64,000 nt of DNA from Chitinophagaceae bacterium (lineage in GTDB: Bacteria > Bacteroidota > Bacteroidia > Chitinophagales > Chitinophagaceae), in NCBI GenBank assembly GCA_947371755.1, contig CANBQT010000008.1, positions 1 to 64,000 on the forward strand. Reading direction: 5' to 3'. Made by a program: the position numbers and the translations under genes. Below are positions 32,822 through 38,526 of the stretch, piece after piece. Each line of letters begins with the position of its first letter. The first letter of the stretch is position 1. The notes beneath the pieces were generated by a model. The model ran no database searches. It had not been told where the DNA came from and saw nothing but the letters and a program-made list of their open reading frames with translations.

Positions 32822-34105
32822 ATGGATAATTTTTCGAAATCAGTGGTGGCCGTAATCCTAGGCGGAGGGGCAGGAAGCAGACTATCTCCCTTAACTGCTA
32901 CCAGGTCAAAACCCGCAGTACCAATTGCTGGTAAGTATCGTTTAGTGGATATTCCTATTAGTAACTGTATTAATAGCAGTATCAATAGGATGTTTGTATT
33001 GACTCAGTTTAATTCTGCTTCACTTAATAAACATATCAAGAATACCTACCACTTTAGTGCTTTTAGTTCTGGATTCGTAGACATTCTTGCAGCAGAGCAA
33101 ACACCTGATAATCCAGGATGGTTTCAGGGAACTGCAGATGCTGTGAAGCAATCACTGCGCCATATTGGAAATTTTGATTACGAATATATTTTGATCCTAA
33201 GTGGGGATCAATTGTATCAAATGGACTTCAGTGAAATGATTGCTAATCATAAAGCTCAGGGTGCAGACATTACCATTGCTACTATTCCAGTAGGTGATCG
33301 TGAGGCTCCAGAATTTGGAATTTTAAAAACCAATGAGGAACATTTTATTACTTCATTTATTGAAAAACCTAGTAAAGATCTTTTACCAGAATGGACAAGT
33401 GATACAGGGGAAGAAATGCATAAAGAAGGTAGAAACTATCTGGCATCAATGGGTATTTATATTTTCAATAAGAAAATTCTGGATCATCTTTTATATGAAA
33501 AGAATCCAAAAGCAACTGATTTTGGAAAAGAGATCATCCCGGAATCCATCGACAATCATAAAGTAATCAGTTATCAATACGATGGTTACTGGACTGATAT
33601 CGGAAACATTTATTCATTCTTTGAAGCAAACCTTGCTTTAACCGATGATGTACCGGCTTTTAATCTTTTTGATAATAATAAAACTGTTTATAGTCGTGCA
33701 AGAATGTTGCCTCCTGCAAAAATTAGCGGCACTACTTTAGAGAAAACAATTATAGCAGAAGGATCTATCATCAACGCCAGCAGAATAGAACAAAGCGTGG
33801 TAGGTATCAGATCAAGAATTGGTCATGGCACTACGGTGGTAAGTACTTATATCATGGGTAACGATTACTACGAAACACTTTCTGAAATGGAGTCGAACAA
33901 GGCTAAAGGTTTGCCTTTAATTGGAATCGGAGAGCGTTGTTATATTAAAGACGCCATCATCGATAAGAACTGCCGGATTGGGAATGATGTGAAGATCATT
34001 GGCGGTAAGCATTTACCGAATAGTGATCATCCACTTTATGCAGTGAAAGACGGTATCGTGGTAGTTAAAAAAACTGCCATCCTTCCGAACGGTTTCGTAA
34101 TTTAA
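32822..34105 (+). CDS. glgC: Glucose-1-phosphate adenylyltransferase
   Basis: The 427-residue protein has the nucleotide-binding motif GGGAGSRLSPLTATRSKPA (14-32) with the conserved arginine and Lys30. VPIAGKYRLVDIPISNC follows, and a C-terminal left-handed beta-helix carries hexapeptide repeats. It makes ADP-glucose from ATP and glucose 1-phosphate, the committed step of glycogen synthesis, and is typically controlled by glycolytic intermediates. It follows glgA in the same unit and ends at a strong terminator. Confidence 0.96.
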   Translation: MDNFSKSVVAVILGGGAGSRLSPLTATRSKPAVPIAGKYRLVDIPISNCINSSINRMFVLTQFNSASLNKHIKNTYHFSAFSSGFVDILAAEQTPDNPGWFQGTADAVKQSLRHIGNFDYEYILILSGDQLYQMDFSEMIANHKAQGADITIATIPVGDREAPEFGILKTNEEHFITSFIEKPSKDLLPEWTSDTGEEMHKEGRNYLASMGIYIFNKKILDHLLYEKNPKATDFGKEIIPESIDNHKVISYQYDGYWTDIGNIYSFFEANLALTDDVPAFNLFDNNKTVYSRARMLPPAKISGTTLEKTIIAEGSIINASRIEQSVVGIRSRIGHGTTVVSTYIMGNDYYETLSEMESNKAKGLPLIGIGERCYIKDAIIDKNCRIGNDVKIIGGKHLPNSDHPLYAVKDGIVVVKKTAILPNGFVI

Positions 34106-34111
34106 CTCATT

Positions 34112-34143
34112 AAAAAAACATCCCTTTTTGGGATGTTTTTTTA
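34112..34143 (+). terminator. Terminator of the glgAC operon
   Basis: AAAAACATCCC and GGGATGTTTTT pair around a T-rich loop (TTTTT), followed by more T residues to 34143. Confidence 0.9.
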
Positions 34144-34195
34144 TTTACTTTTACCTTCATGTAATTATTACACATTACACCTTCAATTGATTGCT

Positions 34196-35542
34196 ATGGC
34201 CCTTGCTAACAGTTTTTCGTCTAATTCAAACAGCTCAAAACCTGTTTTAAGTTTCTGGAAAATCTGGAATATCAGTTTTGGATTCTTAGGAGTACAAATT
34301 GGATATTCTTTACAAAATGCCAATACCAGTAGAATACTATCTGCTATTGGTGCTGATCCCCATAATTTGAGTTTATTCTGGTTGGCAGCACCTGTGGCTG
34401 GTTTAATTGTTCAACCAATCGTGGGTATGTCTAGTGATAAAACCTGGACGAGATTAGGAAGAAGAATTCCTTTTATTCTAGGTGGCTGTATTGTTTCTGC
34501 ATTGGCGATGTTCTTTATGCCAAATTCAGAACACTTTGCAGCATTATTGCCAGCATTAATTTTCGGGGCTACGATGTTATTGTTGATGGACACTTCCTTC
34601 AATGTAACCATGCAACCTTTCAGAGCCCTGGTAAGCGACATGCTTCCTGAAAGTCAGCGTAATAAAGGGTATGCCATTCAAAGTTTCTTAATCAATACAG
34701 GTGCATTCGTAGGCTCCATGCTACCTTATTTATTGACCAATGTTTTTAATGTATCTAATGAACCAAACCCTGGTGATAAAGTAGCACCTACCGTGATCTA
34801 TGCCTTTTATTTTGGAGGAGCTGCTTTGTTATTAAGTGTTTTATGGACATCATTCAGAACAAAAGAATATCCTCCTGAAGAATATGCGAAGTACAACAAT
34901 ATCGACACAACTGAAACTGAAAAAGTTCCTTTTAGTGCATTATTGAAAAATATTCCTGCTACTATGTGGCAGCTTTCTATCACACAATTTTTTTCCTGGT
35001 TTTCACTATTTCTCATGTGGGTGTATACTACACAAGCAATTGCTCAAAATATATGGGGCACCACAGATCCTCATTCAAAATTATTTAATGAAGCGGGAGA
35101 TTGGACAGGTGTAATCTTTGCAGCATATAGTTTGTTTGCCGCATTATATTCTTTGGTCCTGACATCTATCACTGACAAATTAGGCAGAAAAAATACCTAC
35201 ATGCTTTCGCTACTATGCGGTGGGATAGGATTGATGTCAATGATGTTTATTACAGATAAAAATCTTTTGTTTATACCGATGATTGGTGTGGGTATTGCCT
35301 GGGCTGCTATACTTGCTTTACCTTATGCCATTCTTTCTTCTTCATTGCCACCAAAACAGACAGGTGTTTATATGGGAATCTTCAATGCTACCATTACCAT
35401 CCCACAAATTGCTGCCGGACTATTAGGCGGACTTGCTTTAACACTTGTTGGTGAAAAAGCAGTGAATGTAGTAGGTCTGGCAGGGGCTTCGATGATCATT
35501 GCAGGTGTTTGTGCAAAGCTGGTGATCAAATCGAAAGATTGA
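34196..35542 (+). CDS. MFS transporter, SLC45/GPH-like (maltose or other glycoside)
   Basis: I choose ATG 34196; an upstream in-frame start would lie in the glgC terminator. The 448-residue protein has 12 predicted helices and MFS loop motifs: GMSSDKTWTRLGRRIPFILGG between helices 2 and 3, and TDKLGRKNTYM in the second half. The opening FWKIWNISFGFLGVQIGYSLQNANTSR resembles the SLC45/sucrose-maltose transporter group. The next gene, 26 bases downstream, is a periplasmic maltodextrinase-like GH13 enzyme, which supports uptake of its products. Substrate is inferred from context. Confidence 0.85.
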   Translation: MALANSFSSNSNSSKPVLSFWKIWNISFGFLGVQIGYSLQNANTSRILSAIGADPHNLSLFWLAAPVAGLIVQPIVGMSSDKTWTRLGRRIPFILGGCIVSALAMFFMPNSEHFAALLPALIFGATMLLLMDTSFNVTMQPFRALVSDMLPESQRNKGYAIQSFLINTGAFVGSMLPYLLTNVFNVSNEPNPGDKVAPTVIYAFYFGGAALLLSVLWTSFRTKEYPPEEYAKYNNIDTTETEKVPFSALLKNIPATMWQLSITQFFSWFSLFLMWVYTTQAIAQNIWGTTDPHSKLFNEAGDWTGVIFAAYSLFAALYSLVLTSITDKLGRKNTYMLSLLCGGIGLMSMMFITDKNLLFIPMIGVGIAWAAILALPYAILSSSLPPKQTGVYMGIFNATITIPQIAAGLLGGLALTLVGEKAVNVVGLAGASMIIAGVCAKLVIKSKD

Positions 35543-35568
35543 TTTAGGTGGGTTTAAATTAAATTTAT

Positions 35569-37422
35569 ATGAAACGTAAATTATTTTTTTTAGCGATCGC
35601 TTTCTTAAGCGTGACGAGTTATTCTTTTGCCCAATACGCAAAATTGTATCCCACTAATTGGTGGGTTGGAATGAAGTGGAATAAGGTTCAGGTTTTAGTG
35701 TATGGTGAGTATGATGGATTTAATAAAGAAACTGTCAGGATCAATTATCCAGGTGTGAAATTATTAAAGACAACTGCCTTAGAAAATGGGAAATATATGG
35801 CTTTGGATCTTGAAATAGCAGCCACTACGCTACCCGGTGATGTTGTGATTGAGTTTCTACAGAATGCTAAAGGACATGCCGTAAAATGGCCTTTAGAAAA
35901 AAGAAGAACGGGTAATGGAAAAACATTTGCGCAAGGTGTTAACTCATCTGATCTGGTTTATTTATTAATGCCGGATCGTTTTAGTAATGGAGATGAATCA
36001 AATGATCATATTGCAGGTATGCGTGATCAAAGCCTGAATAGAAAAGAAATTTATGACCGACATGGTGGTGATCTTCAAGGAGTAATTAATCATCTGGATT
36101 ATTTACAAAAATTGGGAATTACAACTGTATGGATGACGCCAGTACTTGAAAATGACCAACCCAATAGAACCGAACATGGGTATGCATTTACAGATCATTA
36201 TGCGATTGAAAGAAGAATTGGTGGAGCTGAAAAATATTTGGCATTAAGCGACGCACTGCATAAACGCGGCATGAAATTAATGCAGGATGCTGTGTATAAT
36301 CATGTGGGAAGCAAGCATATTACTTTTCTGGATCAACCCATGAAAGACTGGTACCATCAATGGCCTAAATACACAGGTACTTCCTACAAGGATCAACCTC
36401 TTTTCGATCCGTATGCATCAAAATCTGATGCGAAAAGAACTGTTGATGGTTGGTTCACACCTGAAATGCCCGACCTCAATCAATCTAATCCATATGTTGC
36501 GAATTATCTAATTCAACATGCTATCTGGAGCGTGGAAAAATTTGGAGTGGATGGCTGGAGAATCGATACCTATATCTATAACGATTTGCCATTTATGAAT
36601 CGCTGTAATAAAGCATTAACTGATGAGTATCCGAAGATGACGATGTTTGGTGAAACCTGGGTACATGGAACCGCCGCACAAGCCTATTTTGTAGAGAATA
36701 AAATGGATGTGCCTTTTAAAAGCAATTTACAAGGAGCTACAGATTTTCAGGCGTTGATGTATGGCATACAACCTGCTCTGAAACAGGATTTCGGATGGAC
36801 TGAAGGGGTTAATAAATTATACACCACATTGAGTAACGACTTCTTATATAAAGATGCTAATCGCAATTGCATCTTCCTTGATAACCATGACCTGACTCGT
36901 ATCCTTTCAGATGTTGGAGGTGATATTGAAAAAGTAAAAACAGGTATCGCCTGGTTGCTTACTACCAGAGGTATTCCGCAATTGTATTATGGTACTGAAG
37001 TATTAATGAAAGGGGAGAAGAACCCTGCTGATGGTAACGTACGTTTAGATTTTCCCGGTGGATGGAAAGGTGATACCAAAAATGCATTTACAGGAGAGGG
37101 TATGACAGCGGAAGAAAAAGATATGCAACAGTATGTTACAACACTTGCCAACTTTCGTAAGAATAGTTCTGCTATTACAAAAGGGTCTATGATGCAATAT
37201 GTACCTGATGACGGATTATACGTGTATTTCAGATACGATGAAAAACAAACCATTATGTGTGTAATGAATACCAGTGATAAAAATAAAGAAGTAGCGCTTT
37301 CAAATTATACTGAAAGAACCAATGGATTTAAATCAGGAAAAAATGTGGTTTCCGGAGTTACTGTAGAAAACAAATTTACTGTTCCTGCTAAAAGAATGTG
37401 GGTGATAGAATTAGCAAAATAA
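35569..37422 (+). CDS. Periplasmic GH13 neopullulanase/cyclomaltodextrinase-like enzyme (SusA-type)
   Basis: The 617-residue protein has a signal peptide (1-21), an N-terminal cyclomaltodextrinase beta-sandwich (WWVGMKWNKVQVLVYG near 31-46), the GH13 barrel, and a C-terminal sandwich. Catalytic residues are visible: DAVYNHVG (region I), Asp333 in GWRIDTY, Glu362 in FGETW, and His440/Asp441 in DNHD. SusA-type enzymes cut maltodextrins, pullulan or cyclodextrins in the periplasm. It follows the MFS transporter by 26 bases and ends at a bidirectional terminator. Confidence 0.92.
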   Translation: MKRKLFFLAIAFLSVTSYSFAQYAKLYPTNWWVGMKWNKVQVLVYGEYDGFNKETVRINYPGVKLLKTTALENGKYMALDLEIAATTLPGDVVIEFLQNAKGHAVKWPLEKRRTGNGKTFAQGVNSSDLVYLLMPDRFSNGDESNDHIAGMRDQSLNRKEIYDRHGGDLQGVINHLDYLQKLGITTVWMTPVLENDQPNRTEHGYAFTDHYAIERRIGGAEKYLALSDALHKRGMKLMQDAVYNHVGSKHITFLDQPMKDWYHQWPKYTGTSYKDQPLFDPYASKSDAKRTVDGWFTPEMPDLNQSNPYVANYLIQHAIWSVEKFGVDGWRIDTYIYNDLPFMNRCNKALTDEYPKMTMFGETWVHGTAAQAYFVENKMDVPFKSNLQGATDFQALMYGIQPALKQDFGWTEGVNKLYTTLSNDFLYKDANRNCIFLDNHDLTRILSDVGGDIEKVKTGIAWLLTTRGIPQLYYGTEVLMKGEKNPADGNVRLDFPGGWKGDTKNAFTGEGMTAEEKDMQQYVTTLANFRKNSSAITKGSMMQYVPDDGLYVYFRYDEKQTIMCVMNTSDKNKEVALSNYTERTNGFKSGKNVVSGVTVENKFTVPAKRMWVIELAK

Positions 37423-37437: not shown

Positions 37438-37468
37438 AAAAAAGCTTCCCATGTCGGGAAGCTTTTTT
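37438..37468. terminator. Bidirectional terminator
   Basis: AAAAAAGCTTCCC (37438-37450) pairs perfectly with GGGAAGCTTTTTT (37456-37468) around five bases. It ends the GH13 gene and its last base touches the stop of the convergent NTPase gene. Confidence 0.92.
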
Positions 37469-38526
37469 TATAACTCTACAGAACAAATATGGTCTTTTGC
37501 AATTCCGATTTTGTGTAACATTTTTTTCCAGTCGTCCTGTAAATTCCTTTCTGAATCATCACTGCCTAATACCCATATCACAGAAGTGTTTCTGAATACC
37601 TCTCTGTTTGCTTCATTCTCACTGGAATAGGTATCCATTAATTGTAAGAAATATTCAGCTGGTATGATCACTTCCTTCACAGGATCTCCGGGATTAATAT
37701 CATCTATCACCAAATAAGAACTATTATGCCAATTCCAGGGATAGGCATCCTGTTGGTTGGGTTGTGTTGGAGTGAAAAACAAACTGATTAATTTAGTAGC
37801 AGTGGTATATGTCACAGATTGATGGTTGATCGCTTTTTCATTCGCGATTCCCACACTGATACTCGTTTTGCCACAATTAACCCCGCCAAAAATCAACAGA
37901 TGTTTTGCTTTATGATTATCTGCAAGCCAATATAAAATGGATTCTTTAGCTGTTTCCGAAATTGGTAAATCAAATTGACTGAGCCTATATTGAAAAGGAA
38001 ATTGAGCTGACTGTTCGTACATTTTTGTGAGGAACCAATAGCGACCGTTAATAATCAAACCTATACTTAATGGAATCAGAACTTTTGCAAAGCCTGTATT
38101 CCCATTATTAAAATAAACCAATATCACAGCACTTAAAAAAGCCCCGAAAGCAAAAAAGTTAAGATCTGTGAATGTGTCATAAGCAATATTCCACCAGGCA
38201 GGTTGAAATTGATAGGATGATCCAGACACATATACCAATTTCGATTGCGACTTTTTATTCAATAATAGGGGTCCCAGAAAATTATATAATTCAAAACAGA
38301 TCCAGAATATGGATACATAGGTTGCTGCATTGATTCCAGCATTCTCCACTTCCTGATTATTTTTTAAAAGAAAGAATACAATCACAGTAGGTATAAATCC
38401 TAAAGATATATGTCCAAACTGATTAGCAAGCCATGAATAGGTAAGAGTAACTCCCCTATAAGAATCTTTGCCTATTAGATCTGCTTTCAATTGTTTTAAA
38501 ACATCTTTTAGCGTAATTCTTCCCAT
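37468..38526 (-). CDS. Orphan membrane-anchored P-loop NTPase, family not recognised
   Basis: The 352-residue protein has four predicted transmembrane helices (about 36-54, 68-88, 122-140, 146-165) and then a cytoplasmic P-loop domain. Walker A is GGVNCGKTS (214-222), Walker B is YLVIDDI (271-277), and VIWVLGSDD (316-324) sits where a sensor 1 strand would be. The order resembles AAA+/DnaC-like ATPases, but the substrate-recognition part is unfamiliar. The N-terminal 30 residues are basic and cytoplasmic. It is a single gene, convergent with the GH13 enzyme and divergent from an esterase, so context gives no role. ATP binding is well supported; everything else is open. Confidence 0.7.
   Translation of the reverse strand: MGRITLKDVLKQLKADLIGKDSYRGVTLTYSWLANQFGHISLGFIPTVIVFFLLKNNQEVENAGINAATYVSIFWICFELYNFLGPLLLNKKSQSKLVYVSGSSYQFQPAWWNIAYDTFTDLNFFAFGAFLSAVILVYFNNGNTGFAKVLIPLSIGLIINGRYWFLTKMYEQSAQFPFQYRLSQFDLPISETAKESILYWLADNHKAKHLLIFGGVNCGKTSISVGIANEKAINHQSVTYTTATKLISLFFTPTQPNQQDAYPWNWHNSSYLVIDDINPGDPVKEVIIPAEYFLQLMDTYSSENEANREVFRNTSVIWVLGSDDSERNLQDDWKKMLHKIGIAKDHICSVEL

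Follow-up and report, generated by a model that had tools for sequence, protein, structure and literature searches.

The described systems closest to the gene analyzed here are the lipocone membrane proteins and the AAA+ proteins of the IstB/DnaC type. In the main text that describes it, the lipocone superfamily is marked by a His in H2, a Glu in H3 and an Asp in H4, and further by two polar positions, one close to where H3 ends and one following the H4 Asp, as well as by a Gly close to the H4 end (PMC12419801). The superfamily includes DUF2238 (Wok) and DUF2585 (cpCone), and VanZ and phosphatidylserine synthase are also members; in the cpCone clade, H1 is shifted behind H4 (main text of PMC12419801). 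Lipocone signaling with a separate transcription factor was described for VanZ-1/HAAS-PadR, Skillet-2 with an HTH and Skillet-DUF2809 with a wHTH (main text of PMC12419801).

The window is a stretch of 64,000 nucleotides from a Chitinophagaceae bacterium (assembly GCA_947371755.1, contig CANBQT010000008.1, positions 1 to 64,000). One of its genes encodes a membrane domain that is probably of the lipocone type, followed by an IstB/DnaC-like NTPase domain. Here, we propose, with about even confidence, that the product is a membrane-lipid sensing or processing signal transducer that controls a PAS-LuxR activator. Neither the lipocone-NTPase family nor its operator was noticed in the literature within the scope of our search, to which subscription journals and most preprints did not belong.

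The Gene and Its Surroundings

The gene is an open reading frame with an ATG start and is present once in its genome. Two features define the locus:

37468..38526, minus strand: whole gene, 352 aa, lipocone-like membrane domain plus IstB/DnaC-like NTPase domain
37440..37469, no strand assigned: hairpin AAAAGCTTCCC-ATGT-CGGGAAGCTTTTTTT, sequence read by eye

An AlphaFold model built from 69 sequences had a mean pLDDT of 89.9 and a pTM of 0.88. It comprised an amphipathic-looking helix (residues 6-18), four long helices (28-54, 60-89, 111-141, and 145-174) and then an alpha/beta P-loop core. The earlier note, made from the sequence alone, had described, without naming a strand, an ORF with four transmembrane helices followed by a P-loop domain, an order that it called unusual; both the reading frame and the order, membrane part before NTPase part, were borne out. 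The three motifs it had read (GGVNCGKTS at 214-222, YLVIDDI at 271-277, and VIWVLGSDD at 316-324) lay exactly there. Its statement that the protein belonged to no known family also held, since no curated Pfam or NCBIfam family matched the 352-aa protein above its cut-off.

On one side, the gene was convergent with what we take to be an alpha-amylase-like gene, 45 bp off; on the other, it diverged from a presumed alpha/beta-hydrolase-like gene (both names read from the sequence). The strong hairpin with a T-run separated the 3′ ends of the NTPase gene and the alpha-amylase-like gene, and it is probably a bidirectional terminator, as judged from its sequence. A run of carbohydrate genes occupied 32822-37422 on the plus strand; we read them as a nucleotidyltransferase (GlgC-like), an MFS transporter and an alpha-amylase-like protein. 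These neighbors agreed with the previous description of the gene as sitting between carbohydrate genes.

Relatives and Conservation

Relatives were sought by a pattern scan of one genome per species. The patterns were taken from the window protein, so distant relatives were missed and the scan reached close relatives only. It returned 78 related loci, all titled as Bacteroidota taxa (their genera were assigned to this phylum by us). In total, 78 distinct full-length sequences could be aligned, the window's own included. The dN/dS against close relatives was 0.077 to 0.083 in four of five comparisons, and dS was saturated in the fifth. The alignment of 78 sequences and the low dN/dS together indicated that the ORF was not a chance one. 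The NTPase had no match among 50,697 phage records or 72,556 plasmid records. A phylum-wide profile search, in which five candidates were scored per genome among the matches listed, gave 2/395 genomes, a figure that does not estimate prevalence.

Conservation was computed on an alignment of the window protein and 68 loci (A1, n = 69), which left out the broken copies (L070/L087 and L076), the partial loci L078 and L079, some near-duplicates and the loci from genome searches. Of the two halves, the membrane half was the better conserved, with residues 1-186 holding 28 of the 33 invariant columns.

The Membrane Half

The features of the membrane half, all on the minus strand, were as follows (helix equivalents after the main text of PMC12419801):

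38437..38493, minus strand: juxtamembrane segment, residues 12-30; Q12, D16, L17, G19, K20, D21, R24, G25, and Y30 invariant in 69/69
38365..38445, minus strand: TM1, putative lipocone H2 equivalent, residues 28-54; N35, Q36, F37, G38, and H39 invariant
38260..38349, minus strand: TM2, putative lipocone H3 equivalent, residues 60-89; W75, F78, E79, and N82 invariant
38104..38196, minus strand: TM3, putative lipocone H4 equivalent, residues 111-141; D117xxxD121, F125, and G128 invariant
38005..38094, minus strand: TM4, candidate circularly permuted lipocone H1, residues 145-174, from the model

H39, E79, N82, D117, D121, and G128 were invariant in all 69 sequences. The His, Glu and Asp of the lipocone pattern thus had counterparts in H39, E79, and D117, which hhalign paired with the corresponding residues of DUF2238, and the remaining lipocone positions were occupied by N82 (end of H3), D121 (after the Asp) and G128 (end of H4; pattern as in the main text of PMC12419801). 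A VanZ/YjdF-like domain was suspected, and all 69 members were scanned against Pfam; DUF2238 was the family most often matched (24/69, best E 3.1e-4). Ten members were viewed singly: five matched DUF2238, all below the cut-off, and five matched neither DUF2238 nor DUF2585. In L056 and L059, the DUF2238 match extended over all four residues (His, Glu, and the two Asp), and in the other three it reached the His and Glu only; L059 also matched DUF2585 (E 0.0074).

The profile-profile search that had been suggested for the membrane half was run by hhalign on 11 DUF2238 proteins taken from 10 genomes and gave a score of 35.4 (probability 53; E 1.4e-4 for a single comparison). The His, the Glu, the Asp (D117/D121), and the Gly-Ala of TM3 were each paired with the same residues of DUF2238. 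All 120 shuffles scored lower (60 by block, best 31.8; 60 by column, best 23.8), as did the single reversed alignment (14.8) and all 39 other neighbor families (maximum 22.2), only six of which were rich in TM helices (best 21.8). On the same footing, the accepted lipocone pair DUF2238-VanZ reached 36.3. VanZ was rejected as the nearest lipocone, because the membrane half scored a non-significant 14.2 against a VanZ profile (2 of 22 VanZ frames, all guessed, were dropped for internal stops).

Structure searches were also made. No solved lipocone was among the Foldseek and VIA matches listed for the membrane half, and the BFVD search gave nothing under E 0.28. Matches to photosystem I subunit L were set aside as helical-bundle noise (Foldseek E at least 0.2, best Z 8.2, rmsd mostly 8-9), and a match of the N-terminus to 1vmg (hypothetical protein SSO3215, E 0.012) was a lone short one.

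In the model, no TM helix lay ahead of the His helix and one lay behind the Asp helix; the fourth helix would therefore have to be a permuted H1, in the sense of the cpCone clade (main text of PMC12419801). Two cpCone marks named there were replaced by other residues: six positions before the His, the polar residue of cpCone was L33 (L in 68/69), and three positions after the H3 Glu, the Glu of cpCone was N82, which is polar. Taken at the strength of profile scores that are weak and sub-threshold in Pfam, the membrane half probably belongs to the lipocone superfamily as defined in the main text of PMC12419801. The earlier note had seen it as a signal or anchoring domain. That it is more than filler stood; a plain anchor did not, given the match to the lipocone active-site pattern (main text of PMC12419801).

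The mean number of K+R was 4.9 in the N-terminus (25 residues) and 4.5 in loop 2-3 (21 residues), vs. 1.1 in loop 1-2 (9 residues) and 0.2 in loop 3-4 (4 residues). This charge distribution placed the N-terminus and loop 2-3 inside, so the pocket formed by H39, E79, D117, and D121 is predicted to face the cytoplasm.

The NTPase Half

Three motifs were located in the NTPase half:

37861..37887, minus strand: Walker A GGVNCGKTS, residues 214-222; canonical in 65/69
37696..37716, minus strand: Walker B YLVIDDI, residues 271-277; D275 and D276 in 69/69
37555..37581, minus strand: beta4 and sensor-1-like VIWVLGSDD, residues 316-324; W318 invariant

Non-canonical Walker A sequences occurred in L010, L040, L063, and L065. 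Position 322, at the place of sensor 1, was N, S, D, T, or E in 65/69 sequences. Foldseek ranked IstB first (8q4d, E 1.3e-5) and also returned DnaC, DnaI, and DnaA, and VIA-align superposed the half on IstB 5bq5_B with a Z of 13.0 and an rmsd of 3.2 over 149 residues. Family scores were below their cut-offs: IstB gave E 4e-9 with 36.5 of the 200 bits needed, and Bac_DnaA gave E 2e-4 with 22 of 23 bits. The half thus had the AAA+ core fold of the IstB/DnaC type together with Walker A and Walker B, and the folds, the superposition and the weak family scores agreed with the DnaC/IstB-like character assigned to it before. Homologues without the Walker motifs, or a clear match to a characterized family, had been named as what would count against the first description; the homologues kept Walker A in 65/69 and Walker B in 69/69, and the whole protein had no clear match.

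Two AAA+ features failed. No Arg was invariant in residues 187-352 that could serve as an arginine finger (best R267 in 48/69 and R308 in 39/69), and a C-terminal lid with sensor 2 was absent, the model stopping at strand 347-351 (beta5). With an IstB/DnaC fold that lacks these two features, the NTPase half would be a nucleotide switch rather than a hexameric motor.

A PAS-LuxR Regulator as Likely Partner

Neighboring ORFs were clustered for 76 loci, a survey of the kind proposed by the earlier note to find a recurring partner. Among the best 25 clusters, the sole neighbor shared across lineages was a PAS_3 plus LuxR/GerE protein of ~245 aa. It was adjacent and convergent to the NTPase gene at 57/76 loci by gene calling, and L036 raised the count to 58/76; the ORF caller was crude, overlooked at least this one partner and misplaces some starts. 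The 3′ ends of the pair were -78 to +221 bp apart (53/57 between -35 and +14), always on opposite strands. Judged by record title, paired lineages included Chitinophaga, Pedobacter, Polaribacter, Tenacibaculum, Leadbetterella, and others, and the other frequent neighbors occurred at no more than 13 of the 76 loci each and were lineage-bound. All four partners examined exceeded the GerE cut-off; the PAS_3 cut-off was exceeded (25.6) in two of them and not reached (21.2 and 22.2) in the other two. The claim that the gene has no operon partner therefore stood for the window and its clade but not for the family, where the regulator lay tail to tail at 58/76 loci; in this genome it was unlinked.

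The NTPase gene was broken in Ginsengibacter hankyongi (L070, same genome as L087) and in Polaribacter sp. IC066 (L076), and the regulator ORF beside both broken genes remained open.

In the genome of the window, the regulator was found on another contig, with 75% identity to the Pedobacter query protein. Both genes were likewise present and unlinked in L002-L005, L032, and L045. Eighteen unpaired genomes were searched: the regulator was found elsewhere at a high score in six, as a weak match in one (L068) and not at all in 11, and all 12 genomes without a full-strength match were MAGs by title.

The window's family was then surveyed for co-occurrence (195 genomes). Eight genomes carried both genes, three only the NTPase, one only the regulator and 183 neither (Fisher p 3e-11, a value that ignores relatedness). 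The 11 genomes counted as having the NTPase matched it with E values of at most 8e-64; the remaining matches, at E 1e-6 or worse, covered residues 209-282 only and looked like DnaA, and the split between strong and weak was chosen by us. The regulator threshold was 1e-30, and G041 had a weak match under it. G087, which belongs to the window's own genus and was rated 100% complete, had the NTPase without the regulator, and G185 had the regulator without a detected NTPase. Among 151 genomes of a Pedobacter's family, each gene occurred in three, the same three. Since two of these were the sample center and the genome that supplied the query, one independent case was gained from this sample. The protein distances of the NTPase and the regulator correlated at 0.81 over 55 taxa, a value that shared descent alone could give.

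A Predicted Operator Box and Its Other Candidate Targets

The dyad CTGCG-N6-CGCAG was found in 14 of 41 dereplicated upstream regions of the regulator, against a maximum of four for any dyad in 20 shuffles. No enriched dyad preceded the NTPase gene. Extended, the box read CAACTGyGw-N4-wCGCAGkTT (consensus AACTGCGA-N4-TCGCAGTT), with a matrix of 30.5 bits. At least 12 of its 16 bases were present upstream of 51/57 linked regulators, compared with 9/1140 shuffled regions, and 41 of the 51 boxes lay 10-45 bp ahead of the called regulator start. It carries what we take to be the CTG-N10-CAG core of LuxR-type sites. In the region around the start of the NTPase gene (~350 bp before it to 60 bp after it), the box occurred at 1/76 loci.

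An RNA hairpin was considered and rejected. In 35 distinct boxes, complementarity was 40% at pair 2-19, 54% at pair 8-13 and, with wobble, 77% at pair 6-15; two of the eight pairs were thus non-complementary in half of the boxes. This favored a DNA site read by a protein.

A strict pattern search in 50 genomes gave zero to four sites per genome. Of 10 genomes without the pair, three had the strict pattern (four sites in all). The reversed pattern matched in one genome. In the genome of the window, the only strict box was 2 bp behind the regulator gene and not before it (L140:5705-5724, contig C85). An operator-like box behind the regulator stop codon was seen in all five genomes of this clade in which the regulator was found (L140 and L121-L124). 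The regulator of L120 (G185:C3:555941-556648) had a good upstream box, and no NTPase gene was detected in that genome.

Seven of the 10 Pedobacter genomes had the box in front of a gene for a 351-aa patatin, at a distance of 51 to 64 bp from its start. A TATATTTAC element lay between in 6/7, which we assume to be a promoter -7 element. The protein matched Pfam Patatin (E 7e-21), and its nearest NCBIfam family was CBASS_lipase (E about 5e-49; 167 bits vs. a cut-off of 200). The GTSTGG and DG motifs were present in 6/6 open copies checked; the copy at L209 was split into two ORFs. In a search that covered strict boxes, the link was seen in Pedobacter only, partly in closely related species.

At 6/7 Pedobacter loci, a second box, possibly an antisense promoter, followed the boxed patatin gene where two 3′ ends converge:

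L207:3345, second patatin box
L208:2012, second patatin box
L209:3361, second patatin box
L210:3330, second patatin box
L212:637, second patatin box
L217:716, second patatin box

In two Chitinophaga genomes, the box stood ~83 bp before a gene for a protein of 137-140 aa without a Pfam match (L201:2102-2524 and L205:2088-2501). An identical box in L202, L203, and L206 lay inside a coding ORF and was probably fortuitous. The remaining strict sites were found in single genomes each, several of them inside ORFs.

Proposed Mechanism and Alternatives

The following mechanism was proposed. The four-helix, probably lipocone-type domain, through its cytoplasm-facing polar pocket (H39, E79, D117, and D121), would bind or modify the head groups of inner-leaflet lipids, with or without catalysis. 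The ATP-binding domain fused to it, of the IstB/DnaC-like kind, would receive the state of the membrane domain, act as a nucleotide switch and, presumably by contact, control the PAS-LuxR protein. This regulator would bind the LuxR-type box before its own gene and, in Pedobacter, before the CapV-like patatin gene, and its effect would be activation. With a lipid-sensing domain and a phospholipase target, the system would couple the state of membrane lipids to lipid remodeling.

Four other explanations were weighed. The membrane half may be foremost an enzyme, a transferase or hydrolase of inner-leaflet lipid head groups that the NTPase gates or powers, and the regulator need not then be under NTPase control. 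The invariance of all lipocone pocket residues would suit a catalyst, the predicted patatin target belongs to a family of lipid enzymes too, and catalysis was inferred for families with an intact pattern (main text of PMC12419801). However, genes of lipid synthesis were not noticed in the best 25 neighbor clusters, and the sole cross-lineage neighbor was the regulator; we regard this explanation as rather unlikely. An anti-phage or stress module, in which the sensor, the regulator and the CapV-like phospholipase make a conditional membrane-damage response, would suit the patchy, co-inherited distribution and the CBASS_lipase score of the boxed patatin. Against it, PADLOC gave the NTPase-regulator pair weak P-loop or HTH matches only (best E 1e-4), the NTPase had no match in phage or plasmid records, some lineages kept stable synteny with housekeeping-like genes (names read from the sequence), and the patatin link was confined to Pedobacter. 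Such a module seemed very improbable.

The model of the earlier note, in which a DnaC/IstB-like loader anchored in the membrane acts on DNA or on a helicase, has the fold and the weak IstB, DnaC, and DnaA scores on its side. It had the least chance in our judgment: an invariant finger arginine and a lid were absent, the membrane half was the better conserved one, and the top recurrent neighbors included no gene noticed as a helicase, a transposase or a replication gene. The pairing with the regulator could also be old synteny without a functional link, as lineages retain other neighbors too, the correlation of distances is explicable by descent, and G087 and G185 each hold one gene only. However, the pair persisted in several lineages whose other neighbors differ, and the genes still co-occurred when unlinked, most sampled genomes having either both or neither. 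We gave this explanation little credence.

Thus, we favored a lipocone-NTPase signal transducer that controls the PAS-LuxR activator. More tentatively, and with more doubt than confidence, it may represent an undescribed class of signal transduction, which would run from a cytoplasm-facing lipocone through an IstB-like switch and a PAS-LuxR protein to two genes, that of the regulator itself and that of a CapV-like phospholipase. If true, the lipocone superfamily, which was defined recently, would gain an NTPase-coupled, cytoplasm-facing member, and this member would come with a transcription factor of its own, an operator that is sharply defined and a target among lipid enzymes. With these three, what lipocones sense or modify would become testable in culturable Pedobacter and Chitinophaga. 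The circuit would serve membrane-lipid homeostasis with an ATP-binding relay in place of a histidine kinase, and the family may be an unstudied bacterial way to sense and adjust membranes. The case also indicated that an apparently orphan gene can have its partner elsewhere in the genome.

Comparison with Known Systems

With the IstB, DnaC, DnaI, and DnaA proteins, the NTPase half shared the core fold, Walker A, an hhhhDD Walker B and a polar sensor-1 position. Unlike them, the window protein had no conserved arginine finger and no lid and was membrane-anchored, and no replication or transposition context was noticed for its family. The boxed Pedobacter patatin shared the patatin family and the GTSTGG and DG motifs with the CapV/CBASS patatins, whereas its score remained below the CBASS_lipase cut-off. 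No cyclase or CBASS genes were noticed in the stretches of 2.4-5.4 kb at the boxed patatins, where ORFs were read by eye.

The DUF2238/Wok and cpCone lipocones had in common with the membrane half the H/E/D residues, the polar residue after the Asp, the Gly near the end of H4 and a multi-helix integral membrane domain, and sub-threshold Pfam matches linked it to DUF2238 and, in one member, to DUF2585 (main text of PMC12419801). The pocket of the NTPase-fused family is predicted to open inward, whereas 14 of 17 integral lipocone families open outward (main text of PMC12419801). In that main text, no NTPase fusion was mentioned ("AAA," "NTPase," "IstB," and "P-loop" occur 0 times), nor were LuxR or PAS, and "ATPase" occurs four times, two passages concerning other proteins (PMC12419801). 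As in VanZ-1/HAAS-PadR and the two Skillet systems, a lipocone-like membrane protein and a transcription regulator shared a conserved neighborhood. Compared with what the main text gives for those systems, the present family differed in its lipocone type, in the NTPase relay domain, in the PAS-LuxR regulator and in the convergent genes, and further in a defined operator and a predicted phospholipase target (PMC12419801).
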